Shown here piece by piece: positions 11,515-33,594 of a stretch of DNA of 33,779 nt. The position numbers and the translations under genes are program-made. Each line of letters begins with the position of its first letter. The first letter of the stretch is position 1. Under the pieces are notes generated by a model. The model had not been told where the DNA came from, searched no databases, and saw only the letters and a program-made list of their open reading frames with translations. Source of the stretch: Acidimicrobiales bacterium (GTDB taxonomy: Bacteria > Actinomycetota > Acidimicrobiia > Acidimicrobiales > AC-14); NCBI GenBank assembly GCA_025463925.1, contig JAODBK010000044.1, positions 1-33,779 of the forward strand, given 5' to 3'.

Positions 11515-11523
11515 GCCCACTCA

Positions 11524-12409: not shown

Positions 12410-12417
12410 GGGCCGAC

Positions 12418-12434
12418 AGGTTACCGGCGGGTAG
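12418..12434 (-). promoter_or_regulatory. hbd promoter with ccr-like palindrome
   Basis: On the minus strand a -10-like TAACCT (12423-12418) ends 8 nt before the hbd ATG. It overlaps TTACCGGCGGGTAG (12421-12434, plus strand), which resembles the ccr element TTACCCGTGGGTAA. The likeness continues into the flank: 17 of 22 positions agree between 1229-1250 and 12421-12442. Shared control of hbd and ccr is inference. Confidence 0.45.
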
Positions 12435-12552
12435 CGTCCGCTCTCCAAGTCGGGCCACGCGCGCTGAGCGTTTGTCGCCGCGCAGGGTGAACGGCCATCA
12501 TGGGTCCCTGCGGCGGCGATGCGGCATCGAATCGCCTGGAGGGGTTGGGGAC

Positions 12553-15500
12553 ATGGGTGGGATGCGGCGGGATGGAGCGAGCGCACGGGCGGCCGGCGCC
12601 ATCGCGGTGATGGCCATGATTGCCGGATTCACCGTGGCAGCCTCGGCGGCCGACGTCAGCACGGTGTCCGTCGACGTCGCCCGCACCGGTTGGGACCAGG
12701 CGCAACCCAATCTGGCGCCGGCCACGGTCGGCTCGAGCTTCGGGCCGCTGTTCACCGCCCAGGTCGACGGGCAGGTCTACGCGCAACCGCTGGTGTCGGG
12801 CAACGTCGTCATCGCCGCGACCGAGAACGCCACCATGTACGGCCTCGACGCCACGACCGGCGCGGTGATCTGGCAGCGCCACGTCGGCAACGCGTTCCCC
12901 GCGTCGGCGGTGCCGTGCGGCGACTTGACCCCGCTCATCGGGTTCACGTCGACGCCGGTCATCGACGCCAACGGCTGGGTGTACACGGTCGGCAAGACCT
13001 ATGACGGCGTGGACCCGCACAGCGCGCGGTTCGCGATGTACGCGTTCAGCGTTGCCAACGGCGCCGCCAAGCCGGGTTGGCCGGTCGACGGCGTCTTCAT
13101 CGGTGGTGTCGCGTCGAACGATCCCACCTCCACGCTCGGCGCGTTCAACATCAACCAGCGCGCCGGCCTTTTGCTGATGAACGGCGTGGCGTACGCCGCG
13201 CTGGGCAGCAGCTGTGACGTGGACCCGTACCGCGGCTGGGTGGCCGGCGTGTCGACGTCCGCGGGCACGCTGAGCACCCTCTGGACCGACGAGGTCGGTG
13301 GCGGCACCAACCCGACGGCCGGCATCTGGATGTCCGGCGGTGGCATCGCGTCCGACGGATCGGGCCAGATGCTGCTGTCGAGCGGCAATGGCATCGCGCC
13401 GCCGGTCGGGCCTGGGACGTCGCCCCCGGCGACTCTCGGGAACAGCATCTTCCGCCTTGCGGTGCAGTCGAACGGGACGCTCAAGGCCACCGACTTCTTC
13501 ACGCCGTCCAACGTCGACGCGCTGAACCAGAACGACCTCGACCTCGGTTCGAGCGGTCCGTCCCTGCTGCCCGATTCGTTCGGCACGCCGTCGCATCCGC
13601 ACCTCATGGTGCAAGGCGGCAAGGAGGGCAAGGTCTACCTGATGGACCGCGACAAGCTCGGCGGCCGCGCCCAAGGTCCTGGCGGCACCGACGCCGTGCT
13701 CAGCGCCACCTCGTTCCCGACCGGGATGTGGGGCCACACCGCGACGTGGGGTGGCGACGGTGGCTGGGTGTACGGATCGATGTCGGGCGGCTCGCTGTTC
13801 GCAATGGCCCGTTCGGTCACCGCCGCCGGCGACCCGCAACTGGTCAAGACCGGGACGAGCGTCGACGCGCTCGGGTTCGGGTCGGGATCACCGGTCGTCA
13901 CGTCCAACGGCACCACGGCGGGCTCGGCGCTGGTGTGGGTCGTCCGGTCACCCGACGGCAGCGGCGTGGGCGCCGACCTGCGCGCCTACGACGCGGTGCC
14001 GGTCAACGGCACGCTCCAGTTGCGGTGGAAGTCACCGACCTTCAAGGCCACCAAGTTCACCGTGCCGGCCACGAGCAACGGTCGGGTCTTCGTCGGCACG
14101 CGCGACGGCACCGTGCTGGCATTCCGTTCGACCGCGCCGCCGCCGATGGCGGGCAACCCGGTGAGCTTCGCCAACACCAAGACCGGGCAGTCGCGTGTCG
14201 CCAACGCGGTGTTCACCGCCGGCGCCACGGTGACCGTCAACTCCCTGGCCATCTCCGGCGCGCCGTTCTCGATGGGCGCCGCCACCCCCGCGGTCCCGAC
14301 GACGTTGGCCGCCGGCAAAACCCTGACCATCCCGGTGACGTTCTCGCCGGCCAACGCGGGCAACTTCAGCGGCACGCTCACCGCCAACACCTCATCCGGG
14401 CCGTTCTCACTGACCCTCAGCGGCATCGGCACCACGACCGCGTTGTCCGTCGCACCCACGAGCGTCGACTTCGGCAACGTCCAAGTGGGTCGCACCGTGT
14501 CCGGTGGCATCACCATCTACAACGGCCGCGCCGGCGCGTTGACGATCTCGTCGGTGACGCCGCCGGCCGCGCCGTTCGGCGCCGCCAGCCTGCCGGCCGC
14601 CGGCACGAACGTTCCCGGCAAGTCGTCGCTGTCGGCCAGCGTGTCGTTCGCGCCCACTGCCGCCGGCACGTTCAACGGCAGCCTGGTGCTGAACGACAAC
14701 CTCGGCGAGACCATCACGGTGCCGTTGAAGGGCAACGGCGTGCCGCCGGGCCATCTCACCATCACGCCCACCACGGTGGACTTCGGCACCATCGCGACCG
14801 GCACCGCCAAGACGCTCACCTTCGATGTCGGCAACACCGGCGCCGGCCCCCTGGTGATCTCCAAGGCCAAGCCGCCGGCCGGCACCTTCAGCACCTCGAA
14901 CCCGCTGCCCGAGGGACTGACGATGGCACCGGGGTCGCACCGCTCGCAGACGGTGACGTTCGCGCCCACCACGCCGGGCGCGGCCTCGGCGACCTACGTG
15001 ATCACGGGTGACGACGGCCAGGGCCCGATCACCGTGAACCTGGTCGGGTCGGGCAGCGGCGGGCCGTCGATCGTTCCCGACCCGACTGCCGGCGGCTGGC
15101 AGCTGAACGGCGCGGCGTCGATCGTCGGCACCCAACTCCAGCTGACACCCGCGGTCAACAACGTCACCGGAACCGGCTTCTGGCCGACCTCGGTCGCGTC
15201 GTCGACGCTGACCGTCGGCTTCGACGCGACGATCGACACTGGCAGCGGCGCCGACGGCATGACGCTGGCGTTGATCGATCCCGCGCTGACTGCGAAGTTC
15301 ATCGGGTCCGGCTCGAACGGCATGGGGTACTCCGGCGCGACCGGCGTCGCGATCGCGCTCGACACCTTTGCCAATGCCGGCGACCCCAACGGCAACTTCA
15401 TCGGGATCGCGCAGACCGGTGACAACCTCGGCCTCCATTACCTCGCCACGGCCACCAACGTGCCCGGCCTCCAGAACGCGACCCACCACCTGACGGTCAC

Positions 15501-16884
15501 CATCAACGCCGGGCAGATCAGCGTCAGCATCGACGCCGCGCAAGTGCTGACTGCGACCATCACGTTGCCGCCGCAGGTGCTCGTCGGCTTCACCGGCGCC
15601 ACCGGCGGTCTCAACAACCGGTACGCGGCCAGCCACCTGTACGTCTCGGGCACCGCCGGCCCGCCGCCCCCGCCGCCACCGGGCCCGGTGACGGACCCGA
15701 GCAAGGGCGGATGGCAGCTCAACGGCGCGGCGTCGATCGTCGGCACCCAGCTGCAGCTGACGCCGAACACCGCCGGCGCCGCCGGCTCGGGCTTCTGGCC
15801 GACCGCGCTGTCGTCGAACCAGCTCACCGTCGACTTCGATGCCACGATCGACACCGGCACCGGCGCCGACGGGATGACGCTCACCCTCGCCAACCCGGCC
15901 GCCAGCGCGACCGCGCTGGGTGCCGCGGGGAGCGGCCTCGGGTACGGCGGCATCAACGGCGTCGCGGTGGCGCTCGACACGTATCAGAGCCCGGGTGATC
16001 CGTCGGGCAACTTCGTCGGCATCGCCACGTCCGGGACGGCGAACTCGTTGACGTGGGCGGCGACGTCCACGGCGACGGTGCCGCCGCTGCGGAATGCCAC
16101 GCACCACGTCACCGTCATCGTCTCCAGCGCGCAGTTCAACGTGAAGATCGACGGCCTCACCGTGCTGACGTCGACGGTCACGCTCCCACCGCAGGTGCTG
16201 CTCGGGTTCACCGCCGGCACCGGCGGGCTCACCGACCGCCACGCGGTCGCCAACGTGGCCGTCACCGTCGGCGGCTCGACACCGCCGCCGCCCGCGGTGC
16301 CCGATCCCACCGCCGGTGGCTGGAAGCTGAACGGGTCGGCGTCGATCGTCTCCGGCCTCCTGCAACTGACTCCCGCGACCAACGGGCTCGCCGGCTCGGC
16401 CTTCTGGCCGAACGCCGTCTCGTCGAACGCGATGACCATCGACTTCGACGCCACCATCGACACCGGCAACGGGGCCGACGGCCTCACGCTCACGCTGGCC
16501 AACCCGACTGCTGGGGCCAGCGCGCTCGGGGCCGGCGGCAGCGGTGAGGGATTCGGTGGCATCAACGGGATCGCGATCTCGCTCGACACCTACCAGAGCG
16601 GCGCCGGCGACCCGTCGGGCAACTTCATCGGCGTCGCCACGTCCGGTGACGCGAGCCATCTGGTCTATGCGGCGACATCGGGCGCGATCGCTGCGCTCGA
16701 CAACGCGACCCACCACATCACGGTGACCCTCAACGGCGGCGTGCTGAACGTCAAGCTCGACGGCCTCACGGTGATCACCACCAACGTGAGGGTGACGCCG
16801 CAGGTGCTCATCGGGTTCACCGCCGGCACCGGCGGCCTGAACGACCGCCACGCGGTGAAGAACCTCGTCGTGACGTTGGGCTAA
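12553..16884 (+). CDS. Large secreted protein: beta-propeller, ASH-like repeats and three L-type lectin domains
   Basis: The 1443-residue protein starts at ATG 12553, with GGAGGGG 8 nt upstream. A signal peptide (basic GGMRRDG, hydrophobic core AIAVMAMIAGFTVA, probable cleavage after ASA near residue 33) sends it outside. Residues about 35-530 look like a PQQ/YVTN-type beta-propeller (for example GLDATTGAVIWQRHVG and VFVGTRDGTVLAFRS). Residues about 534-836 contain three immunoglobulin-like ASH/choice-of-anchor units (SVDFGNVQVGRTVSGGI, TVDFGTIATGTAKTLTF). Residues about 837-1443 hold three tandem legume-lectin-like domains separated by Pro-rich linkers, each with a GADGMTL-type loop and an ALDTYQSPGDPSGNF-type metal/sugar loop. 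No sorting signal or C-terminal membrane helix is present, so it is probably released or held by sugar binding. A carbohydrate-binding adhesin or matrix protein is the best guess. Confidence 0.88.
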   Translation: MGGMRRDGASARAAGAIAVMAMIAGFTVAASAADVSTVSVDVARTGWDQAQPNLAPATVGSSFGPLFTAQVDGQVYAQPLVSGNVVIAATENATMYGLDATTGAVIWQRHVGNAFPASAVPCGDLTPLIGFTSTPVIDANGWVYTVGKTYDGVDPHSARFAMYAFSVANGAAKPGWPVDGVFIGGVASNDPTSTLGAFNINQRAGLLLMNGVAYAALGSSCDVDPYRGWVAGVSTSAGTLSTLWTDEVGGGTNPTAGIWMSGGGIASDGSGQMLLSSGNGIAPPVGPGTSPPATLGNSIFRLAVQSNGTLKATDFFTPSNVDALNQNDLDLGSSGPSLLPDSFGTPSHPHLMVQGGKEGKVYLMDRDKLGGRAQGPGGTDAVLSATSFPTGMWGHTATWGGDGGWVYGSMSGGSLFAMARSVTAAGDPQLVKTGTSVDALGFGSGSPVVTSNGTTAGSALVWVVRSPDGSGVGADLRAYDAVPVNGTLQLRWKSPTFKATKFTVPATSNGRVFVGTRDGTVLAFRSTAPPPMAGNPVSFANTKTGQSRVANAVFTAGATVTVNSLAISGAPFSMGAATPAVPTTLAAGKTLTIPVTFSPANAGNFSGTLTANTSSGPFSLTLSGIGTTTALSVAPTSVDFGNVQVGRTVSGGITIYNGRAGALTISSVTPPAAPFGAASLPAAGTNVPGKSSLSASVSFAPTAAGTFNGSLVLNDNLGETITVPLKGNGVPPGHLTITPTTVDFGTIATGTAKTLTFDVGNTGAGPLVISKAKPPAGTFSTSNPLPEGLTMAPGSHRSQTVTFAPTTPGAASATYVITGDDGQGPITVNLVGSGSGGPSIVPDPTAGGWQLNGAASIVGTQLQLTPAVNNVTGTGFWPTSVASSTLTVGFDATIDTGSGADGMTLALIDPALTAKFIGSGSNGMGYSGATGVAIALDTFANAGDPNGNFIGIAQTGDNLGLHYLATATNVPGLQNATHHLTVTINAGQISVSIDAAQVLTATITLPPQVLVGFTGATGGLNNRYAASHLYVSGTAGPPPPPPPGPVTDPSKGGWQLNGAASIVGTQLQLTPNTAGAAGSGFWPTALSSNQLTVDFDATIDTGTGADGMTLTLANPAASATALGAAGSGLGYGGINGVAVALDTYQSPGDPSGNFVGIATSGTANSLTWAATSTATVPPLRNATHHVTVIVSSAQFNVKIDGLTVLTSTVTLPPQVLLGFTAGTGGLTDRHAVANVAVTVGGSTPPPPAVPDPTAGGWKLNGSASIVSGLLQLTPATNGLAGSAFWPNAVSSNAMTIDFDATIDTGNGADGLTLTLANPTAGASALGAGGSGEGFGGINGIAISLDTYQSGAGDPSGNFIGVATSGDASHLVYAATSGAIAALDNATHHITVTLNGGVLNVKLDGLTVITTNVRVTPQVLIGFTAGTGGLNDRHAVKNLVVTLG
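15061..16881 (+). repeat. Three tandem lectin-domain repeats of about 600 bp
   Basis: Units run about 15061-15655, 15694-16275 and 16303-16881. Each opens with DPxxGGWxLNGxASIV and ends with PQVLxGFTxxTGGLxxR. A 29-base block is identical at 15106-15134 and 15721-15749 (615 bp apart), so units 1 and 2 duplicated recently or are kept alike by gene conversion. Linkers are Pro-rich (seven prolines between 1 and 2, four between 2 and 3). Confidence 0.85.
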
Positions 16885-16895: not shown

Positions 16896-17558
16896 ATGAG
16901 CGGGACGTTGGCGTTGGTCGGCGGCGGCGAATGGCGCGACGGGTGCCGGTTCGACGCCGATCTGTTGCAGGTGTCGGGCGGCGACGAGGTCGTCGTCCTG
17001 CCGACCGCGGCCGCGTACGAGCATCCCCAGCGGTCCGTGGACACCGCGACCGAGTGGTTCGCCGGCCTCGGCGGCCGGGTGCGCGGGCTCATGGTGCTGA
17101 GCCGGCCCGACGCCGAGGATCCGGCGAACGTCGAGGTGGTGCGCTCGGCCCGTTTCCTCTATCTGTCGGGTGGCTCGCCCATGCACCTGCGGTCGGTGCT
17201 CAAGGACTCGGCGTTGTGGGATGCCCTGCTGGCCGCCTGGCAGCACGGCGCCGTGGTCGCGGGGTCGTCGGCCGGTGCCCAGGTGCTGTGCGACCCGATG
17301 GTCGACCCGCGCGGCGGCGCCTTCACCCTCGGGCTCGGACTGGTCGAGCAGGTCGCGGTCATCCCGCACCACGACACGTGGTCGCCGGAGCGGGCCCGGC
17401 GCACGTTCTCGCTGGCGCCCAAGGGCCTGCCGGTCGCCGGCATCGACGAGCAGACGGCCCTGATCCGCGGTGCCGACGGCCGGTGGCGGGCCGACGGCAA
17501 GGGGAGCGTCATCGTGTGGGTCGACGGCCAGCCGGCCGCCCTCGACGCGCTGCCCTGA
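16896..17558 (+). CDS. Peptidase family S51-like protein (class I glutamine amidotransferase-like fold)
   Basis: The 220-residue cytoplasmic protein resembles the cyanophycinase/dipeptidase E family. The N-terminal LALVGGGEW strand, YLSGGSPMHL loop (about 89-98) and nucleophile elbow AGSSAGAQ (probable catalytic Ser125) are visible. A conserved HHDTW follows, as expected for a family His. Cyanophycinases cut beta-linked Asp-Arg dipeptides and PepE cuts Asp-X dipeptides; neither substrate can be chosen here, and no cyanophycin synthetase gene is present. The gene starts 11 bp after the lectin protein and may share its transcript. Its end is convergent with the cyclophilin pair, with a gap of only 6 bp. 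Confidence 0.8.
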   Translation: MSGTLALVGGGEWRDGCRFDADLLQVSGGDEVVVLPTAAAYEHPQRSVDTATEWFAGLGGRVRGLMVLSRPDAEDPANVEVVRSARFLYLSGGSPMHLRSVLKDSALWDALLAAWQHGAVVAGSSAGAQVLCDPMVDPRGGAFTLGLGLVEQVAVIPHHDTWSPERARRTFSLAPKGLPVAGIDEQTALIRGADGRWRADGKGSVIVWVDGQPAALDALP

Positions 17559-17564: not shown

Positions 17565-18125
17565 TCAGTCGGACCCGGTGACCGTCACCGTCTCGATGAC
17601 GACCTTCTCCTTCGGCGTGCCGGCGCCCGGTGAGCCGACGGCGTCGATGGCCTCCACGACGTCGAGGCCCTTCACCACCTTGCCGAACAGCGAGTACTGC
17701 GGTGGCAGTTGCACGCCGGACGGCCCGCTGATGACGAAGAACTGGCTGCCGTTGGTGTGCGGCCCGGCGTTGGCCATGGCCAGCGAGCCGACCTCGTACC
17801 GACCGGCCTTCGGCAGCTCGTCCTCGAACCGGTAGCCCGGGCCGCCGCGCCCGGTGCCATCGGGGTCGCCGCCTTGGAGCACGAAGCCGGGGATGACCCG
17901 GTGGAAGTGGATCCCGTCGAAGTAGTGGTAGCCGGCCAGGAAGACGAAGTTGTTGACCGTCTTGGGCGCCGCGACCGGATCGAGCGCGATCACCATCGTG
18001 CCCTTCGACGTCACCATCTCGGCGGTGTACTGCTTCGACGGGTCGATGCCCATCGGGGGCGGGCCGTCGAAGCGCTGCGTCTTCGGCGACGAGCCGTCGG
18101 CGGCGGGAAACTCGGGTGTCGGCAC
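17565..18125 (-). CDS. Cyclophilin-type peptidyl-prolyl isomerase, cytoplasmic
   Basis: The 186-residue protein catalyses cis-trans isomerisation of X-Pro bonds. The active-site block [15 protein letters not shown] (Arg, Phe and Gln conserved) and NGSQFFV are intact. The residue matching human CypA Trp121 is Gln in the segment [11 protein letters not shown], which usually goes with weak cyclosporin binding. No signal peptide or membrane helix is visible. GTG 18125 is preceded by AGGAG 5-6 nt upstream, and that site overlaps the stop codon (TAGGAG) of the cyclophilin gene in front, so the two are probably coupled. The pair looks like a tandem duplication. Confidence 0.93.
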
Positions 18126-18133
18126 GGGATCTC

Positions 18134-18940: not shown

Positions 18941-19011
18941 TGGTTCTTCTCGCTCACTCTTGACGGTCGGTCGCGCCTGCCCGGGCGTCGCGGCGATGGG
19001 CCAGGGCCAAA

Positions 19012-19029
19012 CCGGCGGGTGGCCGCCGG
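19012..19029. repeat. Inverted repeat in the cyclophilin/lysC divergent region
   Basis: CCGGCGG-GTGG-CCGCCGG forms a perfect 7-bp stem within the 123-bp gap between the two divergent genes. It could be a protein-binding site or a chance event in GC-rich DNA. Confidence 0.25.
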
Positions 19030-19047
19030 TGGGCCGCCGGAGCACGT

Positions 19048-19053
19048 TACCGT
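19048..19053 (+). promoter_or_regulatory. Candidate -10 box of lysC
   Basis: TACCGT matches TANNNT and lies 10 nt before the lysC ATG, which would leave a leader of only 3-4 nt. No Shine-Dalgarno sequence is evident before the ATG. Confidence 0.35.
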
Positions 19054-19063
19054 CGGTGGCGAC

Positions 19064-22502: not shown

Positions 22503-23903
22503 ATGGCGCTCAAGAGCGACGTCCTCGTTCCCTGGTTGCGGACGCGCGAGCGCGCGTCGAGCGCCGGCGTGCACGTCAGCCGTCCGGCGCGGTCGCCGGC
22601 GCTTCTCGCCCCGGTCGTCGACCTGCTGGCGCTGTCCATCGGCTTGGGCTTCGCCACTGGTGGCATCAACCACCTCGGGGAGCTCTACGTCCTCGGCACG
22701 TTCGTGGCGCTGCTCATGTGCGGATCGCCGCGGCTCCGCATCGCGCCCAGCATCACCGCCGAGATGCCGCGCCTGCTCACCGCGCTCACGGTCCCGTTGG
22801 CCGCGATCGCCGCGCTGGCGGCGCACGACCCGCGATTGCCCGACCTGGTGACGCGCGTCCCGCTCACGGCGCTCCTCGTCGTGGTCGGCCGCGGGCTCAC
22901 GTACACCGCGCTGCGGGCGGCGCGGTCGCAAGGGGTGCTCCTCGAGCCGACACTGATCGTCGGTGCCGGGCACCTTGGCGTGCAGATCGCCGAGACTCTC
23001 CAGACCCACGCCGAGTACGGCATGGTGCCGATCGGGTTCCTCGACGGCTTCGACGGCACCGGGTTGCCCCTCCCCGTCCTCGGCGACCTGCCGGCGCTCG
23101 ATCGGGTGCTGTCGGAGTTCGAGATCCGCCGGGTCGTCGTGGCCTTCGGGTCCCACCGAGAAGCCGAGATGGTCGACGTGCTCCGCGCCTGCGAGGCGGC
23201 GAGCATCGAGGTGCACGTGCTGCCGCGGTTCTTCGAGTTGGGCGTCGCCCCGAGCGGTCCCGACACCGAAGAGGTCTGGGGCATCCCGCTCGTCCGCGTC
23301 AAGCGGGCGGCCCTCCGCTCGCGCACCTGGCGAATGAAGCGGGCCTTCGACCTCGTCGTGGCGACGATCGCGCTGGTGCTCTCGGCGCCGATCTTCGCCA
23401 TGGTCGCGCTGGCCGTGCGGGTGTCGAGTCCCGGCCCGGTCCTCTTCCGGCAGAAGCGTGTCGGCCAGGGCGGGCAGCTGGTCCAGGTCCTGAAGTTCCG
23501 CACACTCGAGGTCAACGACGACTCCGACCGGACGTGGTCGGTCGTCACCGACGTCCGCGTCACGCCGGTCGGCAAGTTCCTGCGAGCGACGAGCCTCGAC
23601 GAGCTGCCGCAACTGCTCAACGTGATGCGCGGCGAGATGTCGCTGGTCGGCCCACGTCCCGAGCGTCCGCACTTCGTCAGCGAGTTCAACGAGCGCGTCG
23701 TGCGGTACGACGACCGGCACCGCGTGCCGGTCGGCATGACCGGGTGGGCGCAGGTGCACGGCCTGCGCGGCGACACGTCGATCGAGGAGCGGGCCCGGTT
23801 CGACAACCGCTACATCGAGCACTGGTCGCTGTGGCGCGACATCGTCATCCTCGGCCGCACCATTGCCGCCGTCATGCGCGACACGCTGACCCTCAAGCAT
23901 TGA
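22503..23903 (+). CDS. Polyprenyl-phosphate sugar-1-phosphate transferase (WbaP/CpsE type)
   Basis: The enzyme starts glycan synthesis by placing a sugar-1-phosphate on undecaprenyl phosphate at the inner membrane face. Its 466 residues contain an N-terminal membrane region (about 36-135), a Rossmann-like domain with LIVGAGHLGVQIAE (about 150-260), a further membrane helix (RAFDLVVATIALVLSAPIFA), and the catalytic domain with LFRQKRVGQGG, LKFRTL, DELPQLLNVMRGEMSLVGPRPE and MTGWAQVHGLRG. All are standard for the family. The sugar (glucose, galactose or other) cannot be told. This is the priming enzyme for the glycan locus that follows, although asd and a reverse-strand transferase separate it from the polymerase genes. 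Confidence 0.93.
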   Translation: MALKSDVLVPWLRTRERASSAGVHVSRPARSPALLAPVVDLLALSIGLGFATGGINHLGELYVLGTFVALLMCGSPRLRIAPSITAEMPRLLTALTVPLAAIAALAAHDPRLPDLVTRVPLTALLVVVGRGLTYTALRAARSQGVLLEPTLIVGAGHLGVQIAETLQTHAEYGMVPIGFLDGFDGTGLPLPVLGDLPALDRVLSEFEIRRVVVAFGSHREAEMVDVLRACEAASIEVHVLPRFFELGVAPSGPDTEEVWGIPLVRVKRAALRSRTWRMKRAFDLVVATIALVLSAPIFAMVALAVRVSSPGPVLFRQKRVGQGGQLVQVLKFRTLEVNDDSDRTWSVVTDVRVTPVGKFLRATSLDELPQLLNVMRGEMSLVGPRPERPHFVSEFNERVVRYDDRHRVPVGMTGWAQVHGLRGDTSIEERARFDNRYIEHWSLWRDIVILGRTIAAVMRDTLTLKH

Positions 23904-23932
23904 ATTCGGCCGGGGCCGGCGCGGCCCTTCGG

Positions 23933-26031
<2,099 letters not shown>

Positions 26032-26101
26032 GGTTCCCGGCGCCCTTTCGATCCCGACCCAGCCGATCCCGACCCGGACCAATCCGCCCGGACGCACCAC
26101 C

Positions 26102-26107
26102 TAGACT
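26102..26107 (+). promoter_or_regulatory. Candidate -10 box before the short leader ORF and Wzz/BY-kinase gene
   Basis: TAGACT matches TANNNT and ends 7 nt before a GTG (26115) opening a 14-codon ORF. A second TANNNT match, TACCGT at 26135-26140, could instead start a transcript nearer the kinase gene. Confidence 0.4.
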
Positions 26108-26114
26108 CGTGGCG

Positions 26115-26159
26115 GTGAATCGCCGGGGCGACCTTACCGTTGTCGAGAGGTGCGCCTGA
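26115..26159 (+). CDS. Possible 14-codon leader peptide ORF
   Basis: GTG 26115 opens a reading frame of 14 codons (MNRRGDLTVVERCA) ending at TGA 26157-26159, immediately followed by the GTG of the Wzz/BY-kinase gene. The -10 box TAGACT lies 7 nt upstream of its GTG, so the ORF could be read from a leaderless mRNA and pass ribosomes to the kinase gene. The frame also contains GAGAGG, the likely ribosome-binding site of that gene. It may be a regulatory upstream ORF, or chance. Confidence 0.35.
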   Translation: MNRRGDLTVVERCA

Positions 26160-27665
26160 GTGGGTGCTGCCGACCCGATCAAGGTCGTCTGGGGTTACCG
26201 GTGGTGGCTCGCGGTCTTCATCATCGTCGTCGTCGGTGCAACCTACGCGTCCACCAAGCGGGCCAGCCCGGTGTACGACGCGACCTCGTTGACCGAGGTG
26301 CTCTCCGGGCGCCAAGCCGGCGGCGACTTCGTGTCGCCGGAGGAGCTGCTGCACCTCACCAACATCTACTCGCAGCAGGCGAAGACGCGCGGGGTCGCCG
26401 AGCTGGCCGCGACGAACCTCCAGGGCGTGAGCGCGTCCTTCCTGCAGAGCCACGTCGACGTGTCCGCGGCGGCCGATCTGCAGATCATCAACATCACGGG
26501 CAAGAGCGGCGACCCGGCGTCGGCCGCCGCCTACGCCAACGCCTACGCCAACGGGCTCAACGAGTACGTGGACAAGCAACAGGGCGCCCAACAGAACGCC
26601 GGCCTGCAGAAGATCCAGGCGCGGGTGTCCGAGATCCAGGCGGAGCTCACCGCCCGGAAGCTCACGGCGAATGATCCGAACGCGGCCGCGCTGTACGGCG
26701 AGCTCCAGCAACTGCAGACGCAGGCCGCGACGCTGCGCGGCCGGCCGGTCGACTCCATCCGCATCATCGAGACGGCGTTGGCCCCGAGCACGCCGTCGTC
26801 GCCCCGGCCAACGCGCGACGCCGGATTGGCGGGCATCCTCGCGGCGTTGCTCGGATCGGTGGCCGCGTATCTCCGCAGCCGCCTCACCGATCGCTACGCA
26901 TCGGCCGACGAGGCGGCGACCGACCTCGGTCTGCCGCTGCTCGGCGAGATCCCGCGGTCACCGAAGCACGCCGAGATGGCCGACGAGGCGCTCCGCGCCC
27001 TGCGCACCAGCGTCGAGTTCGGCATGAAGGCCACCGCCGGCCGAGTGGTCCTCGTCACCAGCGCCGGCCCCGGCTCCGGCAAGACGTTCGTCGCCGCCAG
27101 CCTCGGCCGGGCGTTCGCAGCTGGTGCGCAGCACGTGATGATCATCGACGCCGACCTGCGACGGCCGGCGCTCCACAGCCGGCTGAACCTCTCGGCCGAG
27201 CCCGGCCTGGGCGACCTCATCGCCGACGCGCCCACGTCTGGCGCAACCCTCCCGGCCAAGGAGGTCGCGCTCCCGGCCCTCGTGCGGCGCCGCGGCGGCG
27301 AGTTGCACGTCGTGACGTGCGGGCGCCGCGTCGCCGACCCGGCCGAGGCCCTCGCCTCGCCGGCCATGCGCGACGCGATCACCACGGTGCGCGCCGCCTA
27401 CGACGTCGCCATCATCGACAGCCCGCCGCTCCTCGCGGTCGTCGATCCGGTCGTGCTGTGCCGGTACATCGACGGCGTCGTCCTGGTGGTCGACGGGCAA
27501 CGCGACCGCCGCCGGGACACGCGGCGCGCGTTGCAGGTGCTGCGGGCGGTGGATCCGCCGATTCTCGGCATCGTGTTCAACGGCAGCCGTGAGGCGAACG
27601 ATCGGTACGTCTACTACTCGTCGTCCTCGTCGCGAGATCGGACGGCGCTCGAGGCGGCGCCCTGA
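26160..27665 (+). CDS. Wzz-type chain-length regulator fused to a bacterial tyrosine kinase
   Basis: The 501-residue protein controls polysaccharide polymerisation and export. The N-terminal Wzz part has membrane helices at about 14-30 and 222-240 flanking an extracytoplasmic, partly coiled region, with the Pro-rich APSTPSSPRPTRD before the second helix. The cytoplasmic BY-kinase has Walker A GPGSGKT (about 302-308), Walker A' MIIDADLRRP and Walker B VAIIDSPP. A short C-terminal tyrosine cluster, RYVYYSSSSS, is the probable autophosphorylation site. GTG 26160 follows GAGAGG by 9 nt. It heads the polymerase and glycosyltransferase genes, which overlap in series. No partner phosphatase is seen. 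Confidence 0.92.
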   Translation: MGAADPIKVVWGYRWWLAVFIIVVVGATYASTKRASPVYDATSLTEVLSGRQAGGDFVSPEELLHLTNIYSQQAKTRGVAELAATNLQGVSASFLQSHVDVSAAADLQIINITGKSGDPASAAAYANAYANGLNEYVDKQQGAQQNAGLQKIQARVSEIQAELTARKLTANDPNAAALYGELQQLQTQAATLRGRPVDSIRIIETALAPSTPSSPRPTRDAGLAGILAALLGSVAAYLRSRLTDRYASADEAATDLGLPLLGEIPRSPKHAEMADEALRALRTSVEFGMKATAGRVVLVTSAGPGSGKTFVAASLGRAFAAGAQHVMIIDADLRRPALHSRLNLSAEPGLGDLIADAPTSGATLPAKEVALPALVRRRGGELHVVTCGRRVADPAEALASPAMRDAITTVRAAYDVAIIDSPPLLAVVDPVVLCRYIDGVVLVVDGQRDRRRDTRRALQVLRAVDPPILGIVFNGSREANDRYVYYSSSSSRDRTALEAAP

Positions 27666-29119
27666 CGGCCGTCGGCGCGCTCGTCCGGCGGCGACCCGTC
27701 GACGGCCAGCGTCGCGCCGCCCTGTCGGTTGTCGGCGCCGGCGTCGTCTTCGGGATCATCGCCGGGATCGCCGCGGAACCGCTCGGGATCCTGCTCGTCG
27801 TCCTGCCGGTCACGGCACTGGCCGGTTGGTGGCTCATGCAGCATCCGGCAGCCGCGCTGGCCATCGCGGTCGGCGCGGTGGTCGTCTTGGACGAGGACAA
27901 TCAGGGCCTCGTCCCGATCACCAGCCACTTCTACCAACGGCTGCCCGGCATGCCCGTCAACCTGACGGTCGTCGACTTCCTGGTGGCGACGGTCGTGATC
28001 GGCATCGTCTTCGACCGCGCCCGCCGGCGGGCCCGGCTGGCGGTGCCGCGCGCGTTCCTCCCTGTCGCGTTGCTCATCGGCGGCGCCGTGCTCTGGGGCA
28101 TGCTGGTCGGCCGGGCGAACGCATGGAACTCCAACTTCGCGTTCAGCGAGGCGCGCGGCGTCGTCTACCTGCTGCTCGTGCCGGTGCTCGTCGTCAACGT
28201 CGTCGACAGCCCGGCGGTGCTGAAGCGGTTCGTGTGGTTCGCCGGCGCGCTGGCGGCGTTCAAGGGACTGGAGGGCATGCTCGGTTGGTTGGCCGGCCGC
28301 GGTCGCCCGATCGGCCCCACCCACCTCACCTACTACGAGCCGCTGCCCAACGCCATCATGATGGGGTTCCTCGTCACGGTGGCGGCGGCCGCAGTGGCGC
28401 GGGTGCGCATGCCGAGATGGGTGATGACCGCGACCCCGCTCGTCGCCGGCGCGCTCCTGCTCTCGTTCCGCCGGAGCTTCTGGATCGCGGCGGTGGTCGC
28501 CCTCGTCATCGCGGTGCTCGTCGCCAGCGGGCGGCGAGGTCGTCCGGTGGTCGTGCTCCTCGGCGCGCTGGTCGTGGTCGCCGGGTACGCGGTCGTGAAC
28601 GTCGGCGGATCGGCCGCCTCGCAGAACACGCTCGTCCAGCGAGCCACGTCGTTGTCACCGTCGTCGCTCAAGGGAAACGCCGACGACCGCTACCGGCTCG
28701 ACGAGCAACGGAACGTCTTCGAGGAGTTGCGACGGCAACCGATCCGTGGCATCGGGCTCGGCGTGCCTTGGGCCATCCGGTACCCGCTCTCGCAGCACTT
28801 CGTCGACGGCCAGTACTACACCCACGTGGCCGCGTTCTGGTGGTGGACGAAGATGGGCATCCTCGGTCTGCTGGCGTACGTCGCATCGGTCGTGGGTGGT
28901 GCCTGGATGGCCTTCGTGTTGTGGCGGCAGCATCCCGACCCGCGGGGCCGCGTCATCGGCCTCGGCATCGCGGCGTCGTTCATCGGGCTCAGCGTCGCCG
29001 AGCTCACCGGGTCGTTCACCGGCGTCGACTTCCGCCTCAGCATGGGCCTCGCCGCGGCGTGGGGTGGCTTGGCGGCCGCGATCAACCTGATCCAGCCGGT
29101 CGCCGCCATACCCGCGTGA
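27662..29119 (+). CDS. Wzy/O-antigen-ligase-like polysaccharide polymerase, probable CTG start
   Basis: This integral membrane protein has about ten hydrophobic helices and an O-antigen ligase/polymerase-like block: RGIGLGVPWAIRYP, then YYTHVAAFWWWTKMGILGLL. It probably polymerises lipid-linked repeat units outside the membrane. The first conventional start is ATG 27836 (427 residues). However, the same frame is open back to CTG 27662, which overlaps the kinase-gene stop as CTGA. The extra 58 codons have strong G/C third positions and encode a basic segment and a membrane helix (SVVGAGVVFGIIAGIAAEPL). I therefore prefer CTG 27662, giving 485 residues. It shares 4-base overlaps with both neighbours. 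Confidence 0.78.
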   Translation: MTAVGALVRRRPVDGQRRAALSVVGAGVVFGIIAGIAAEPLGILLVVLPVTALAGWWLMQHPAAALAIAVGAVVVLDEDNQGLVPITSHFYQRLPGMPVNLTVVDFLVATVVIGIVFDRARRRARLAVPRAFLPVALLIGGAVLWGMLVGRANAWNSNFAFSEARGVVYLLLVPVLVVNVVDSPAVLKRFVWFAGALAAFKGLEGMLGWLAGRGRPIGPTHLTYYEPLPNAIMMGFLVTVAAAAVARVRMPRWVMTATPLVAGALLLSFRRSFWIAAVVALVIAVLVASGRRGRPVVVLLGALVVVAGYAVVNVGGSAASQNTLVQRATSLSPSSLKGNADDRYRLDEQRNVFEELRRQPIRGIGLGVPWAIRYPLSQHFVDGQYYTHVAAFWWWTKMGILGLLAYVASVVGGAWMAFVLWRQHPDPRGRVIGLGIAASFIGLSVAELTGSFTGVDFRLSMGLAAAWGGLAAAINLIQPVAAIPA

Positions 29120-30216
29120 TCCGGCTGGCCGTCGACGCCAACTGCTTGGCGTGGGGCTGGGGCGGCATCCCGAAGTACGTGGCCCGCGTGACCGCCGAGC
29201 TGGCCCGCTCGGGCGATTACGACATCACCTTGCTCACGAACAGTCGCGGCGCCGCGCTCGGCATCGACGGCGTCACCCACGTCGAGCGACGGCTGCGCGG
29301 CGGCACGCTCTGGCGGAACGCGGTCGTCGCGCCGTGGCTCCGCCGACATCGACCGGACGTCTTCTGGGCCCCGGAGACCGTCGCGCCGTTGTGGGTCGGC
29401 GTGCCGATGGTGATCACGGTTCACGATCTCGCGGCGTTGACCATGCCGGACGTCAAGCCGATGCGGCTCCGCGTCAGCTACCGAGTCTCGGTGCGACGGG
29501 CCGCGACCGAGGCGGCGCGCGTGATTGCGGTGTCGGCCTCGACGGCGCGCGACGTCGAGCGGTTGTGGCACGTGCCTCCCGACAGGGTTCGCGTCATCCC
29601 CGACGCGGTCGACGACCGGTTCACCGTTGGCGACCGGGCCGGGGCACTGGCCCGAGTCGTCGAGCGGTGGGGGGTCAGCGCGCCGTTCGGGCTCTGTGTC
29701 GGCAGCATCGAGCCGCGCAAGGGCCTCGACGTGGCCGTGCAGGCGGCCGGCCTGGCGCGGGCGGCCGGATCACCGTGGCAGCTGGTGATCGCGGGCGACC
29801 GCGGGCACCGCGCCGACGACGTGATCGCGACGGCGGCCGCCACGGGCGCCTGCCGACTCCTCGGTCGCGTCACCGACGACGAGCTCGTCGACCTGTACCG
29901 CGCCGCCGACGCGGTGCTCGTCCCGTCCTGGTACGAGGGCTTCGGCATGACCGCGCTCGAGGCGATGGCCTGCGGCACGCCGGCGGTGATCGCCGCCGCG
30001 TCCGGCGGGCTCGAAGAGGTGAGCGGGCCGGCCGCCGTGGTCGTCGCCGAGCGGACGGCCGAGGCGTGGTGGGCCGGCATCCGGGCGGCGTCGGACCGTC
30101 GCGCCGAGCTGGTGACGCGCGGGTTGGAACTGGCGGGTCGGTACCGCTGGCCGGCGGTTGCGGCCGAAACCGGCGAGGTGCTCGCCGAGGCGGCCGATCG
30201 CAGCCGGTCCCGATGA
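29116..30216 (+). CDS. Family 4-type glycosyltransferase (mannosyltransferase-like)
   Basis: The 366-residue GT-B enzyme starts at GTG 29116, overlapping the polymerase stop (GTGA). The N-terminal domain has DANCLAWGWGGIPKYVARV, a glycine loop typical of acceptor binding, and TVHDLAALTMPD. The C-terminal domain has LCVGSIEPRKGLDVAVQA and the EX7E motif EGFGMTALE in VPSWYEGFGMTALEAM. These are hallmarks of mannosyl/rhamnosyl transferases acting on lipid-linked oligosaccharides on the cytoplasmic face. It is third in the Wzz, Wzy, GT series. The sugar and linkage are unknown. Confidence 0.92.
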   Translation: MIRLAVDANCLAWGWGGIPKYVARVTAELARSGDYDITLLTNSRGAALGIDGVTHVERRLRGGTLWRNAVVAPWLRRHRPDVFWAPETVAPLWVGVPMVITVHDLAALTMPDVKPMRLRVSYRVSVRRAATEAARVIAVSASTARDVERLWHVPPDRVRVIPDAVDDRFTVGDRAGALARVVERWGVSAPFGLCVGSIEPRKGLDVAVQAAGLARAAGSPWQLVIAGDRGHRADDVIATAAATGACRLLGRVTDDELVDLYRAADAVLVPSWYEGFGMTALEAMACGTPAVIAAASGGLEEVSGPAAVVVAERTAEAWWAGIRAASDRRAELVTRGLELAGRYRWPAVAAETGEVLAEAADRSRSR

Positions 30217-30314
30217 GCACGGGGCGCGCGCCGGCACCGGTTCGCGCTCGTCCGCTTGCCTTCGTGCCGAGTCCCCGTCAACGTAAGGCGGTCATGGACC
30301 GGGTGGTGGAGTGA
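30213..30314 (+). CDS. Possible 33-residue microprotein between two glycosyltransferases
   Basis: ATG 30213 overlaps the stop of the preceding transferase (ATGA), and its TGA overlaps the GTG of the next (GTGA), so the frame exactly bridges the 94-bp gap. The product is basic and Pro/Arg/Val-rich (begins MSTGRAPAPVRARPLAF, ends VMDRVVE), with no recognised motif. Third positions are about 70% G/C, lower than in the neighbours, which weakens the case for protein function. It may serve only to carry ribosomes to the next gene. Confidence 0.45.
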   Translation: MSTGRAPAPVRARPLAFVPSPRQRKAVMDRVVE

Positions 30315-31435
30315 CGGCGACGCGCGTCGCGTTCGTCAACGAGGGCCGCCTCGGGGCCGGCGGCATGGGCCATCCCCAGATGGAGGCGGCGCTCCGCGCC
30401 GGGCTCGCCGGCCGAGACGACGTCATCCCCGAGTTCGTGCAGATCCGCCCGATGAGCACATCCGCGCGGAGCATCTCGCGCCCGGTGCCCGGGCTCGCCC
30501 GGTTCGACATCGATTTCCAGCAACAGCGCTGGCAGCTCGTGCAAGCGTTCAAGGGACGGCGCGTCATCGGCCATCACGTGCGACGCGACCGTCCTGACGC
30601 GATCCACGTCCACAGCCACTCGGCCGCGCTGGCGCTCGGGGGGTTGCTGCGCGACCTGCCGGTCGTCGTGTCGGTCGATGCCAGTGTGCAGGCGTGGCAG
30701 GCGATGGGCGTGTGGCGCGAGGTGCGCCGTCACTCGCCGGCGATGGTCGGGTTGAGCCAGTGGCTCGAGCGCCGACTCTTCCGGCAGGCGCTGCTCGTGC
30801 AGGCCTGGACCGCGTGGACGCGCGACACGGTGCTGGCGGCGTGCCCGACGGCTCGCGTCATCGAGCTGCATCCGGGCCTCGACCTCGATCACTACCGACC
30901 GGTGTCGCGCGAGGAACGGTCGCAGCTCCGGGTGCTGTTCGTGGGCGGCCGCTTCGCGCAGAAGGGCGGCCGCGATCTCATCGAGGCCCTCGGGCCGGAG
31001 CTCGGGCGCAGCGTCGAGCTCGATGTGGTCACGCCGTCGTCGTCGGTCGAGTCGCGCGCCGGTATGCGGGTCCATCGCATCGGGCCGGGTGACCGTCGGC
31101 TCGTTCACCTGTTCCAGCAGGCGGATGTGTTCTGCCTGCCGACGCGCGCCGATGCCGTCCCGTGGGTCGTGGTCGAGGCGATGGCGTGCGGCACGCCGGT
31201 CGTCGCGTCGGCCATCGGCGGCATCCCGGATCTGCTCGACCACGGCGCCGCCGGGTCGCTGGTCGAGCCGGGCGACGTGGACGGGTTGCGGGCCGCGCTC
31301 GGGGCGTTGCTGGACGACGGGTCGCGGCGAGCGTCGATGGCCGCCGCGGCGCGCCGGCGGGCCGAGGCCTGTTTCGACGCCCGCCATCAGACGGCGAAGT
31401 TGATCGACGCGCTGGCGTCGGCGCGAGGCGCGTGA
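30311..31435 (+). CDS. Family 4-type glycosyltransferase, variant EX7E motif
   Basis: The 374-residue GT-B protein has an N-terminal domain with EGRLGAGGMGHPQMEAAL and HVHSHSAALALGGLL, and a C-terminal domain with LRVLFVGGRFAQKGGRDLIEAL and PTRADAVPWVVVEAMACGTPVV. The first acidic residue of the usual EX7E motif is Asp here (DAVPWVVVE). The motif GGxxxKGG fits donor-phosphate binding. GTG 30311 overlaps the end of the 33-codon ORF. It is the last plus-strand gene of the locus, and its TGA abuts the stop of the convergent GT2 gene with no gap. The donor is unknown. Confidence 0.9.
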   Translation: MTATRVAFVNEGRLGAGGMGHPQMEAALRAGLAGRDDVIPEFVQIRPMSTSARSISRPVPGLARFDIDFQQQRWQLVQAFKGRRVIGHHVRRDRPDAIHVHSHSAALALGGLLRDLPVVVSVDASVQAWQAMGVWREVRRHSPAMVGLSQWLERRLFRQALLVQAWTAWTRDTVLAACPTARVIELHPGLDLDHYRPVSREERSQLRVLFVGGRFAQKGGRDLIEALGPELGRSVELDVVTPSSSVESRAGMRVHRIGPGDRRLVHLFQQADVFCLPTRADAVPWVVVEAMACGTPVVASAIGGIPDLLDHGAAGSLVEPGDVDGLRAALGALLDDGSRRASMAAAARRRAEACFDARHQTAKLIDALASARGA

Positions 31436-32461
31436 TCAGTAGCGCGGGCGGTGTCCGAACGCGACGACGCCGCGCGTGTGGTGCCAGAGGTAGACGAGCG
31501 GGGTGAGCGCGGACACCGCGGCGAGCGGCAGGACATCGCGGCCTCGCACCGTGCGTCGCCACGCGAGCGCGCCGGCGTTGGCGGCCCACCCGGCGAGGCT
31601 CGCCGCGGCACCGAGTCGCGCCAGTCTCGGGCGCCCACTCGTGATGCCAGCGGCGGTCGTCGCCAGGCCGGCGGCGTACAGCAGCGCGGCGTCGTGCCGG
31701 GCCCGCCGGAGGGTCACCGGGCCGAATCGAGCGCCGGCGTTGAAGGCCCGGAACGCGTCGGGATGCTCGCGGCTCAGGAGCGGATCGAAGTAGTACCGCC
31801 GGGCCAGGCGGATCGGGCCGGTGAACGACGCCGGGTGCGCCGGATGGAAGATCACCAGCTCGGGATCGAACTCGATGTCGAGCGCGGCCCGCTCCAGTCG
31901 GAAGTGCAGGTCGGTGTCCTCGCGGAAATGGAGCTTGCGGTGGGGGTCGTAATACCGCTCGTCGTAGGCCCCGATCGCCCTGAGCGCGTCGGTTCGGTAC
32001 ACGACGTTGCCGCCGAGGTGGCGGTCGCCGCTCCCCGAGAACTCCGTGACGTGGGTGAAGGGCGTCGCCGGCCCCGCGGCCGGCACCTGCACCGGGCCCT
32101 CGACGCCGTCGGGCCCGTCCGGCCGCTGCGTGATCGCGTCCAGTCGGCTCAGCCAGCCGCCGCCCGGCAGCTCGTCGGAGTCGATGAACGCCACCCAGGG
32201 GGTCCGCACCACGGCGAGCCCGGTGTTGCGGGCCGCGCCCGGCCCGCCGTTGTCGGGCCGGCGGATCACGCGCAGGTCGACGCCCGGCAGCTCGGCTCCG
32301 AGGGCGCCATCAATCGGTGGCGACGACGCGTCGTCCACGACCACCACGGGGACCGGGCGCTCGGCCGTGCCCTGCGCAGACAGCGCCGCCAGGAGATCGC
32401 GCAGCGGCCCGGGGTACCCGTGCGCCGGGATGACGACGGTGACGTCCCAGGGGCGGCTCAT
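31436..32461 (-). CDS. Family 2-type glycosyltransferase
   Basis: The 341-residue protein has a GT-A domain: VTVVIPAHGYPGPLRDLLAAL at the N-terminus, VVVVDDASS, RNTGL, and the metal-binding DxD-type motif FIDSDELPGGGWL. EDTDLHFRL corresponds to the catalytic-base region. The C-terminal part (about 245-320) is Ala-rich and hydrophobic and may give one or two membrane helices. ATG 32461 overlaps the stop of the upstream transferase (ATGA on the minus strand). It probably adds a sugar to the growing repeat unit; specificity is not visible. Confidence 0.9.
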   Translation of the reverse strand: MSRPWDVTVVIPAHGYPGPLRDLLAALSAQGTAERPVPVVVVDDASSPPIDGALGAELPGVDLRVIRRPDNGGPGAARNTGLAVVRTPWVAFIDSDELPGGGWLSRLDAITQRPDGPDGVEGPVQVPAAGPATPFTHVTEFSGSGDRHLGGNVVYRTDALRAIGAYDERYYDPHRKLHFREDTDLHFRLERAALDIEFDPELVIFHPAHPASFTGPIRLARRYYFDPLLSREHPDAFRAFNAGARFGPVTLRRARHDAALLYAAGLATTAAGITSGRPRLARLGAAASLAGWAANAGALAWRRTVRGRDVLPLAAVSALTPLVYLWHHTRGVVAFGHRPRY

Positions 32462-33594
32462 CGCGGGGATGCTGCCAGCTCGGCGTGCAGCGCGACGAGC
32501 GGCCGGGCCACGACCGACCACTCGTACGACCGCTCGACCGCGCTCCGGGCGGCGACCGACAGCCGCGCCGCCAAGCCGTCGTCGGTGAGGACCCGCACGG
32601 TGTGCTCGGCCAGCTCCGCCGCGGTGTCGGCCAGCAGCAGGTCCCGACCGTCCTGCAGGTCGAGCCCGTGCGCGCCGAGCCGTGTCGACACCACTGGGAC
32701 GCCGGCCGCCATCGCCTCGAGGATCTTGAGGCGGGTCCCGCTCCCCGCCCGGATCGGCAGCACGACGACGCGGGCCGCCCGCAGGTGGGGGAGCACCGAC
32801 ACGACGGCCCCGGTGACCGTGATCGCTCGACTCTGCAGTGCCACGAGGTCGGGCCCGGCGTCGCGGCCGACGAGTGTCAAGCGGGTGCCAGGGACGCGCG
32901 CCGCGACTCGCGGGAAGACGTCGCCGGCCAACTCACGGGCCGCGGCGGCGTTCGGCCGGTACCCGAAGTGCCCGACGTAGACGATCGTCGGATCGGGCGC
33001 GGGCTTCGCGTAGGTGATCTCGGTCGTGTCGACGCCATTGGGGACGACGATCGTCCGGCGCGAGCCCATGGTGTCGAACGCCGCGGCTTCGGCGGCATTG
33101 GTCGCGCACACCGCATCGACGGCCCGCGCCGCCCACGCCTCGAATCGTTCGGTCTTGGCGGCTTCCCATCGCCAGCGGGCGCGTGGGACGGCCCGGCGCT
33201 CGCCGGCGACCAGGCTGTTCGCCAGCTCGTGCTCGAGGTTGTGCGCGTCGAGGATCACCGGGCGCCGGCCGACAACGGCCGGCACGAGGAACGGCGACTC
33301 GACCTGCACGGTGTCGTAGTGGCCGCGGCGCACGGCATCGGCCTGCGCGTTCGATGCGTGCTTGGCTGCCAGGTACGGCCGTCTGGCCGAACCGGCCAGC
33401 GCCGCCCATCGCGAGCGGGCATGCGGGATGCTGCGCAGCGCGAACGGCTCGTCGCCGGCGCCCGGCACCGGGCCGAGGGCGAGCACGTCGACGTCGGCGG
33501 CCCGGGCCAGCTGTCGGGCCAGGTGCAGCGTCCGTTGCCGGAAGCCGGAGGTCGGGGGCAGCGGCGTCTCGGCGACGACGACCGCGGTCCTCAC
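32458..33594 (-). CDS. Family 4-type glycosyltransferase
   Basis: The 378-residue enzyme begins MRTAVVVAETPLPPTSGFRQRTLHLARQL, the acceptor-side loop, and has DAHNLEHELANSLV and VPNGVD followed by TIVYVGHFGYRPNAAAARELAGDVFP. Its C-terminal motif AGSGTRLKILEAMAAGVPVVST is the form lacking the first Glu of EX7E, common in a large exopolysaccharide transferase subgroup. The start is GTG 33594. It is first of a two-gene minus-strand unit with the GT2 gene (ATGA overlap) and sits just behind the strong hairpin at 33597-33627. Confidence 0.9.
   Translation of the reverse strand: MRTAVVVAETPLPPTSGFRQRTLHLARQLARAADVDVLALGPVPGAGDEPFALRSIPHARSRWAALAGSARRPYLAAKHASNAQADAVRRGHYDTVQVESPFLVPAVVGRRPVILDAHNLEHELANSLVAGERRAVPRARWRWEAAKTERFEAWAARAVDAVCATNAAEAAAFDTMGSRRTIVVPNGVDTTEITYAKPAPDPTIVYVGHFGYRPNAAAARELAGDVFPRVAARVPGTRLTLVGRDAGPDLVALQSRAITVTGAVVSVLPHLRAARVVVLPIRAGSGTRLKILEAMAAGVPVVSTRLGAHGLDLQDGRDLLLADTAAELAEHTVRVLTDDGLAARLSVAARSAVERSYEWSVVARPLVALHAELAASPR

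Follow-up and report, generated by a model that had tools for sequence, protein, structure and literature searches.

The gene at positions 12553 to 16884 of the window (the whole 33,779-nucleotide stretch of Acidimicrobiales DNA analysed here) encodes a new member of a widespread protein family assembled from known parts, and on balance we favour its being a glycan-tethered display protein with a head, a stalk and a grip. The eight-bladed propeller would be the working head, binding a ligand or a protein or acting on a substrate; the stalk would be made of the three ASH domains, and the three C-terminal L-type lectins would grip a glycan on the cell surface or in the extracellular matrix and in this way stand in for a sortase or membrane anchor, with one full canonical site and two weakened sites in tandem perhaps working through avidity. 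Although not a unique chimera, the protein neatly illustrates a modular surface device whose head is strongly conserved. It should be noted that this reading overlaps with two of the alternatives weighed below, in which the lectins bind a foreign glycan or the propeller is an enzyme, that those two overlap with each other as well, and that the probabilities we attach to the readings therefore do not sum to one.

Domain organisation of the protein

The gene bounds were confirmed exactly, with the ATG at 12553 and the stop codon ending at 16884, and its parts are as follows.

12553..16884, + strand: whole gene, 1443 aa (ATG with upstream GGAGG; codon-position GC 0.61/0.59/0.93)
12553..12648, + strand: signal-peptide-like N-terminus, aa 1–32 (from hydropathy; cleavage site judged by eye)
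12652..14157, + strand: eight-bladed BamB/quinoprotein-like propeller, aa 34–535 (model pLDDT 87.4, fold matches, Cys and invariant residues)
14164..15048, + strand: three ASH/HYDIN/choice-of-anchor-D Ig-like domains, about aa 538–620, 631–729 and 735–832 (Pfam, NCBIfam)
15079..15678, + strand: L-type lectin 1, aa 843–1042 (D901, D937, N941 and D944 all present)
15694..16275, + strand: L-type lectin 2, aa 1048–1241 (D1106, D1142 and D1149 present; S1146 replaces Asn)
16303..16881, + strand: L-type lectin 3, aa 1251–1443, to the protein end (D1309, D1345 and D1353 present; S1349 replaces Asn)

Pfam, NCBIfam and a sequence search of solved structures agree on this order, running from the signal-like stretch through the propeller and three ASH domains to the three lectins. 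The propeller, three ASH units and three legume-type lectins proposed in an earlier note made from the sequence alone are thus borne out by Pfam, NCBIfam and the fold predictions for the propeller and for lectin 2, as is its statement that there is no membrane or sortase anchor: the protein contains no LPxTG motif, and its most hydrophobic segment (aa 15–33, mean 1.90; the runner-up reaches 1.40 at aa 549) lies inside the signal-like region. No lipobox was found in the protein either, the first Cys being residue 122. The ASH stalk is well marked, with scores of 78.9 bits for PF22544 (cut-off 25.5), 70.1 for PF15780 (27) and 95.2 for NF012200 (45), and the ASH/HYDIN-type profiles each match three stretches, as does the NCBIfam choice_anch_D profile (NF012200). 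This gene is the only carrier of PF18483 in its own 4.08 Mb assembly (E ≤ 0.001), and a PADLOC search gave no defence-system match.

The propeller head

The propeller model was built from 39 sequences (pLDDT 87.4) and matches designed eight-bladed propellers (Z 29.5–37.0), the best BamB, YxaL and Rv3035 chains (Z about 32) and the PQQ dehydrogenase PedH (Z 29.1), with a sequence identity of 12–18% to the propellers of the BamB and quinoprotein type; VIA-align was applied to the Foldseek matches, and the fold comparisons cover the families that Foldseek listed. The window propeller is therefore like those of BamB, YxaL, Rv3035 and the PQQ dehydrogenases in having eight blades, and the BamB and PQQ profiles match one blade of it. 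The PQQ_2 match in Pfam is above the cut-off (33.3 vs 27.6 bits) but spans only residues 66–114, and the BamB profile in NCBIfam is matched weakly by all 39 propeller members.

Neither of these families could be assigned, and in each case the fold is of that kind. The propeller scores 21.7 bits with TIGR03075 for the PQQ-dependent alcohol dehydrogenases, for which the cut-off is 480.05 bits, and 34.9 bits with the BamB equivalog TIGR03300, for which it is 285.2 bits. A vicinal cysteine pair is a feature of PQQ-dependent alcohol dehydrogenases, whereas C122 and C221 are the only Cys in the window protein and are not neighbours, which together with the profile score speaks against placing it among the PQQ enzymes; for BamB the lipobox Cys is missing. 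In place of these features, C122 and C221 are themselves conserved, being invariant in 39/39 aligned propellers. Many polar and charged residues are equally invariant in all 39 rows (R44, D124, N189, Q202, R203, D222, N279, D328, D330, K357 and K501 among them), and as a result the alignment suggests a functional site in the propeller.

Such a site could also be catalytic, with the propeller a polysaccharide-acting or redox enzyme and the lectins modules that target it to its substrate. We regard this as unlikely, even though the invariant polar and charged residues, a fold near those of the quinoprotein dehydrogenases and tetrathionate hydrolase, and the GH26 fusions described below, in which the lectin does accompany a glycan enzyme, all speak for it. 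The PQQ scores and the absence of a vicinal Cys pair argue the other way, the best profile stretches on known proteins span about one blade, and BamB, YxaL and Rv3035, which to our knowledge are without catalysis, match the model equally well or better. A shared propeller fold does not fix function, and no specific family for the head was found in the profile libraries searched. Propellers also occur on plasmids, where a tblastn search returned 27 records with matches of the propeller-only type at <60% identity among the 15 matches listed, and remoter propellers lie on Caballeronia and Paraburkholderia plasmids (30–33% identity). We note that, where a name is annotated for these remoter propellers, it is PQQ-binding-like beta-propeller repeat protein.

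The lectin domains and their sites

The lectin matches are far beyond chance. Scores for the whole protein are above the cut-offs for PF18483 (143.4 vs 78.3 bits), PF03388 (59.1 vs 24) and PF00139 (51.8 vs 26.3), and the Pfam families Lectin_L-type_dom, Lectin_leg-like and Lectin_legB each match three stretches (lectin E 1.2e-41). The lectins taken singly each fall under the PF18483 cut-off of 78.3 bits, with 67.8, 61.8 and 40.7 bits. They share 55–68% identity among themselves, and the fold was examined in a model of lectin 2, folded together with 37 other lectins of the family (pLDDT 95.3), to which lectins 1 and 3 are linked by 59% and 68% identity, respectively. Among solved structures this model comes closest to the Methanocaldococcus jannaschii legume lectin 7elv (186 residues aligned at an rmsd of 1.7 and 31% identity, Z 28.1), with seed lectins next (Z 23–25; Pisum lectin Z 25.2), and Foldseek also found YwfG (7yl4/7yl6), ERGIC-53 and VIP36 as fold matches.

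The window lectins resemble the L-type lectins (7elv and the seed lectins) in fold, in the loop-A Asp and in the pair of calcium Asp residues, which all three retain, but only lectin 1 has the full calcium and sugar set including the Asn; the other two lectins have Ser at that position. The earlier note had named the legume-lectin fold and the metal/sugar loop as the points to check, and these hold for the fold (lectin 2) and for the loop of lectin 1 but not for the Asn of the other two. A further difference from known L-type lectins is seen at the Mn-site positions (which we take to be Glu8 and His24 of ConA in the seed lectins), where the window lectins have Ala/Ala/Ser and Asn/Asn/Asn and thus no Glu; as far as we know, animal L-type lectins are without this site too, so that the site is no hallmark of the entire family. 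The window protein also differs in its architecture, as here a tandem triplet ends an ASH-propeller protein with no sortase or membrane anchor.

Site residues also vary across the family. In a set of 38 module rows the loop-A Asp is found in 33/38, the calcium Asp in 27/38 (missing in 11), the Asn in 22/38 and the second Asp in 12/38, with the Mn-site Glu and His both at 0/38, and in a set of 14 rows with remoter modules, which has the three window rows in common with the larger set, the loop-A Asp is found in 11/14, the calcium Asp in 7/14 (missing in seven), the Asn in 7/14 and the Mn-site Glu in 0/14. A study of the bacterial lectin YwfG gives its calcium ligands as Asp152, Tyr154 O, Asn156 and Asp166 and has mannose bound by Asp117 and Asn156 among others (PMC9815576), and work on ERGIC-53 describes a contact between its Asn156 and the mannosyl ligand (PMC3912170). 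When placed on the YwfG scheme, D901, D937, N941 and D944 of lectin 1 correspond to D117, D152, N156 and D166. The family has a real lectin fold with a variable site, and binding is therefore a question to be asked domain by domain; judging from the residues present, lectins 2 and 3 with their Ser for Asn, and all three lectins without the Mn-site Glu, may bind sugar weakly or not at all.

If sugar binding had been lost altogether, the lectin-fold domains would be spacers or oligomerisation modules in a long secreted display protein. The Asn to Ser replacements, the lack of the Mn-site Glu in both sets of modules and the loss of the calcium Asp in some relatives would fit this, and yet the loop-A Asp persists in most rows of both sets and the Asn in over half of the larger one. 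One to three C-terminal copies would also be typical of carbohydrate-binding modules, and relatives fill the same slot with LGFP and F5/8C modules, which have binding members. We think it improbable that these domains have become spacers, and retain the glycan-binding grip as the preferred reading.

Relatives and the exchange of C-terminal tails

Within the same order, 44/298 genomes match the protein (E ≤ 1e-10), mostly through the propeller alone, and 13/298, including its own, carry the lectin (E ≤ 1e-8), which is absent from the other nine genomes of the same family at this threshold. A phylum sample searched with the lectin profile gave matches in 6/396 genomes, again including its own. 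A scan of genome contigs with the single sequence found no relatives, and a scan with the propeller alignment found 450, of which we examined the best 80 loci (L081–L160). These 80 of 450 loci hold 82 open reading frames with the propeller plus ASH chassis and come from 79 Actinomycetota and one Chloroflexota (Tengunoibacter, L130); by class they divide into 77 Actinomycetes, one Acidimicrobiia, one Thermoleophilia and the one Chloroflexota, and the genera include Streptomyces (30 loci) and Arthrobacter (11). L159, a relative with three lectins, is an Acidimicrobiia MAG. The family is widespread, mostly in soil actinobacteria, and is apparently unstudied: we found no name or description for it in the open-licence literature searched.

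The window protein shares about 50% propeller identity and the same order of parts with these chassis relatives. Among the 82 chassis ORFs of the best 80 of 450 loci, the ASH block is present in 81 (the exception, in L140, is a 565-aa propeller-only ORF), and the tails are lectins in 36, LGFP in 21, F5/8C in eight, FG-GAP in seven and others in ten, as typed by Pfam on ten tails, in which Calx-beta and Big_3_5 were also seen, and then, for the others, by how closely they resembled a single reference tail for each class or by a match to a lectin profile. The F5/8C tails also match a NedA-like galactose-binding model. The 36 lectin tails have one copy in 16 ORFs, two in 17 and three in three (L081, L141 and L159), and these last three relatives are like the window protein, the others having either fewer lectins or a different kind of tail (LGFP, F5/8C, FG-GAP or another). 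The three-lectin architecture is consequently not unique. The earlier description of the combination as unusual is right for the order, where 13 of 298 genomes have the lectin, but not for the Actinomycetota, where 36 of the 82 chassis ORFs from the best 80 of 450 loci are lectin-tailed: the layout is rare in the Acidimicrobiales and not in the phylum as a whole.

Exchange of the C-terminal module is evident when the tails are mapped onto a tree of 89 propellers (the 82 chassis ORFs, the window propeller and six further ones), which was made by a quick method and is unrooted with long branches (0.79 for the window). The module label requires at least 13 changes on this tree compared with 45.4 when shuffled, the lectin label requires eight, seven of which are forced by the starred branches, and FG-GAP and F5/8C are each confined to one side of a branch. 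Tails thus seem to pass down a lineage for a while and to be swapped occasionally; gain and loss of a tail look alike here since the tree has no known root. With the propeller plus ASH chassis conserved and its C-terminus changing, the tail has the appearance of a grip that can be exchanged.

Probable export and proposed retention at the surface

We infer export of the family from the N-terminus, where 76/82 chassis ORFs from the best 80 of 450 loci have a hydrophobic segment, and in the same set the C-terminus is strongly hydrophobic in 1/82 (L141) and the last 60 residues contain LPxTG in 0/82. A loose pattern for a lipobox matches the N-terminus of 9/82 of these relatives, seven of them of the lectin type, and a lipid may be what holds some of these.

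FG-GAP, Calx-beta and Big_3_5 tails, which as far as we know are not sugar binders, fit a glycan grip less clearly. For LGFP and F5/8C, binding to the wall or to a glycan is indicated: the mycoloyltransferase MytA has LGFP domains that interact with the peptidoglycan-arabinogalactan wall (PMC11299179), and the F5/8C tails match the galactose-binding model. Taking these modules together with the absence of LPxTG and the hydrophobic N-termini, the tail would keep an exported head at a surface. The idea that the lectins hold the protein to a glycan gains from the swaps with LGFP, F5/8C and FG-GAP and from the 0/82 LPxTG count, but that this is the cell's own glycan is a guess.

The window protein is like the adhesins of the SraP and YwfG type in its predicted export signal, in combining a lectin with repeats and in a possible adhesion role. 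Unlike these sortase-anchored proteins it has no LPxTG motif, and its C-terminal lectins would themselves be the anchor. The comparison raises the possibility that the protein is an adhesin for another cell or for a plant, fungal or algal polysaccharide and does not bind its own glycan, as YwfG, a bacterial L-type lectin whose ligand is known, binds yeast mannan and aggregates yeast (PMC9815576). YwfG has a sortase anchor in addition to its lectin, whereas the lectins here would be the sole anchor and would need the cell's own surface for the head to be displayed. The remaining evidence on this adhesin reading, which we hold to be possible though doubtful, comes from GH26 and is given with the neighbourhood.

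Genomic neighbourhood and the link to GH26

Two features downstream of the gene are of interest.

16896..17558, + strand: peptidase S51-like gene, separated by 11 bases from the end of the chassis gene
22503..33594, strand unassigned: exopolysaccharide-type genes (sugar transferase, glycosyltransferases, GNVR/P-loop chain-length-type protein, Wzy_C)

The S51-like gene is possibly co-transcribed with the chassis gene, and a homologue was found near the chassis in 1/87 other loci (L059). The glycan-type genes begin 5.6 kb downstream of the stop with the sugar transferase at 22503 and reach 33594; an aspartate-semialdehyde dehydrogenase gene also lies in this stretch. A comparison with 87 other chassis loci (80 with flanks of ≤9 kb, plus seven), using predicted genes and tblastn, found a 145-residue piece in L119 as the sole match to the exopolysaccharide genes, and every window neighbour is matched in no more than two of the 87. 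The surface-glycan locus pointed out earlier is therefore real, but it is not kept beside the chassis, and because the neighbours are not kept in relatives its proximity is suggestive only. We note that aspartokinase and semialdehyde-dehydrogenase genes are present in L103. Streptomyces exfoliatus (L095) has three upstream neighbours in common with the window (52–63% identity). In both, the gene next to the chassis on its upstream side codes for a 3-hydroxyacyl-CoA dehydrogenase and is transcribed divergently from it, and further out come genes of the methylmalonyl-CoA-mutase type and for a zinc-type dehydrogenase; this shared context is metabolic rather than glycan-related and is a single occurrence.

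The lectin module is also found away from the chassis and forms the end of GH26 proteins in three genomes (G041, G051 and G090), a position that would suit a carbohydrate-binding module. In G108 the same module terminates a Big_9/cadherin-like repeat protein, and in G053 it is internal to TIG plus PQQ-repeat proteins. Among the 298 genomes of the order, GH26 occurs in 6/13 lectin genomes and 33/285 others (Fisher p 0.003, or 0.0002 for the nine strong lectin genomes, kinship being ignored in both), and this co-occurrence is weak because G041 and G090 share a genus, G053, G246 and G264 share a family, and kinship was left uncorrected. A cellulose-synthase-like GT2 gene and a GH26 gene adjoin the chassis in 12 of the best 80 of 450 loci (L138, L142, L145–L150, L152, L153, L156 and L159), and eleven of these sit in one 14-row clade of Streptomyces-type genomes, L159 being the other, so that they represent few independent events. 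In G246 (L064) a GT2 and a PMT-like gene lie beside the lectin ORF, and there is no GH26 match there.

The GH26 association ties the lectin module to glycan chemistry in the relatives. Both the lectin–GH26 fusions and the excess of GH26 in lectin genomes would suit an adhesin or binding protein for foreign polysaccharides, but the GT2 and GH26 genes beside the chassis in L159 and the Streptomyces-type clade point to a self-made polysaccharide, and a search of the window's own genome (assembly 96.67% complete) gave no GH26. The GH26 link is therefore no evidence for the ligand of the window protein itself, for which retention on a surface glycan remains our preferred reading.

A broader view would see the chassis as a general actinobacterial device that places a strongly conserved enzyme or receptor head on the surface glycan of each lineage through a matching plug-in grip (L-type lectins, LGFP, F5/8C or FG-GAP), and the window protein as the triple-lectin version that reads its own exopolysaccharide. 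We offer this as speculation with a small chance of being right in full. If the exchange of modules is as it seems, the family would provide a natural series in which the same secreted head is combined with different wall- or glycan-binding domains, and with it a way to ask how these bacteria keep hold of surface proteins that have no sortase motif; the surface glycan of each lineage would then also be open to direct inquiry.

Gene neighbours of the chassis gene

Three types of gene lie upstream of the chassis gene, the ORF for the probably exported propeller and ASH protein, both in the window and at the Streptomyces exfoliatus locus L095 (1 of the 87 other loci compared), and the third of these is divergent from the chassis gene in both cases.

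Window 1252-2601, zinc-type dehydrogenase gene
Window 9580-11520, methylmalonyl-CoA-mutase-type gene
Window 11558-12586, 3-hydroxyacyl-CoA dehydrogenase gene
L095:1278-7997, counterparts of these three genes in S. exfoliatus

The window also carries two genes separated by ~3.7 kb, with a sugar-transferase gene in between. The kinase domain of the first starts at residue 319, and this ORF as listed is probably overextended at its start.

Window 18116-20284, aspartokinase-type gene
Window 23945-24955, aspartate-semialdehyde dehydrogenase gene

In Actinoplanes sp. KI2 (L141), whose chassis gene encodes three lectins, two predicted genes separate this chassis gene from a WD40 protein gene upstream of it. 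At L114 and at L109, two chassis genes stand in tandem on one contig.

L141:3024-6881, 1286-aa protein with 13 WD40 stretches
L114:4289-8362 and L114:8938-13002, tandem chassis genes
L109:5792-8731 and L109:8899-11847, tandem chassis genes

Propeller and lectin parts in other proteins

No lectin matches were found in two other propeller proteins of the window's own genome.

G000:C98:8734-9687, 773-aa ORF, 43% identical across a portion of the propeller
G000:C47:50445-51380, 566-aa ORF, 35% identical across a portion of the propeller

The L-type lectin module is terminal in three GH26 proteins, in the manner of a carbohydrate-binding module, and its calcium Asp motif is degenerate in all three. 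Two proteins of another genome (G053) have five TIG stretches, the lectin module between and C-terminal PQQ-type repeats, parts similar to those of the window protein but in a different order.

L050:2467-4320, L067:6071-7876 and L051:5534-7549, GH26 proteins with terminal lectin module
L047:14306-18070 and L048:12026-15742, TIG/lectin/PQQ-type-repeat proteins (1239-1255 aa)

A GT2 and GH26 locus in Streptomyces-type genomes

At 11 loci of Streptomyces-type genomes (L138, L142, L145-L150, L152, L153 and L156), a one-lectin chassis gene adjoins genes for a cellulose-synthase-like GT2, a GH26 protein and a large protein without Pfam match, with a UDP-glucose dehydrogenase gene close by; several are flanked on the opposite side by what we take to be ribosomal-protein/rpoA-type genes. 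This GT2, GH26 and chassis gene group may represent an undescribed exopolysaccharide locus.
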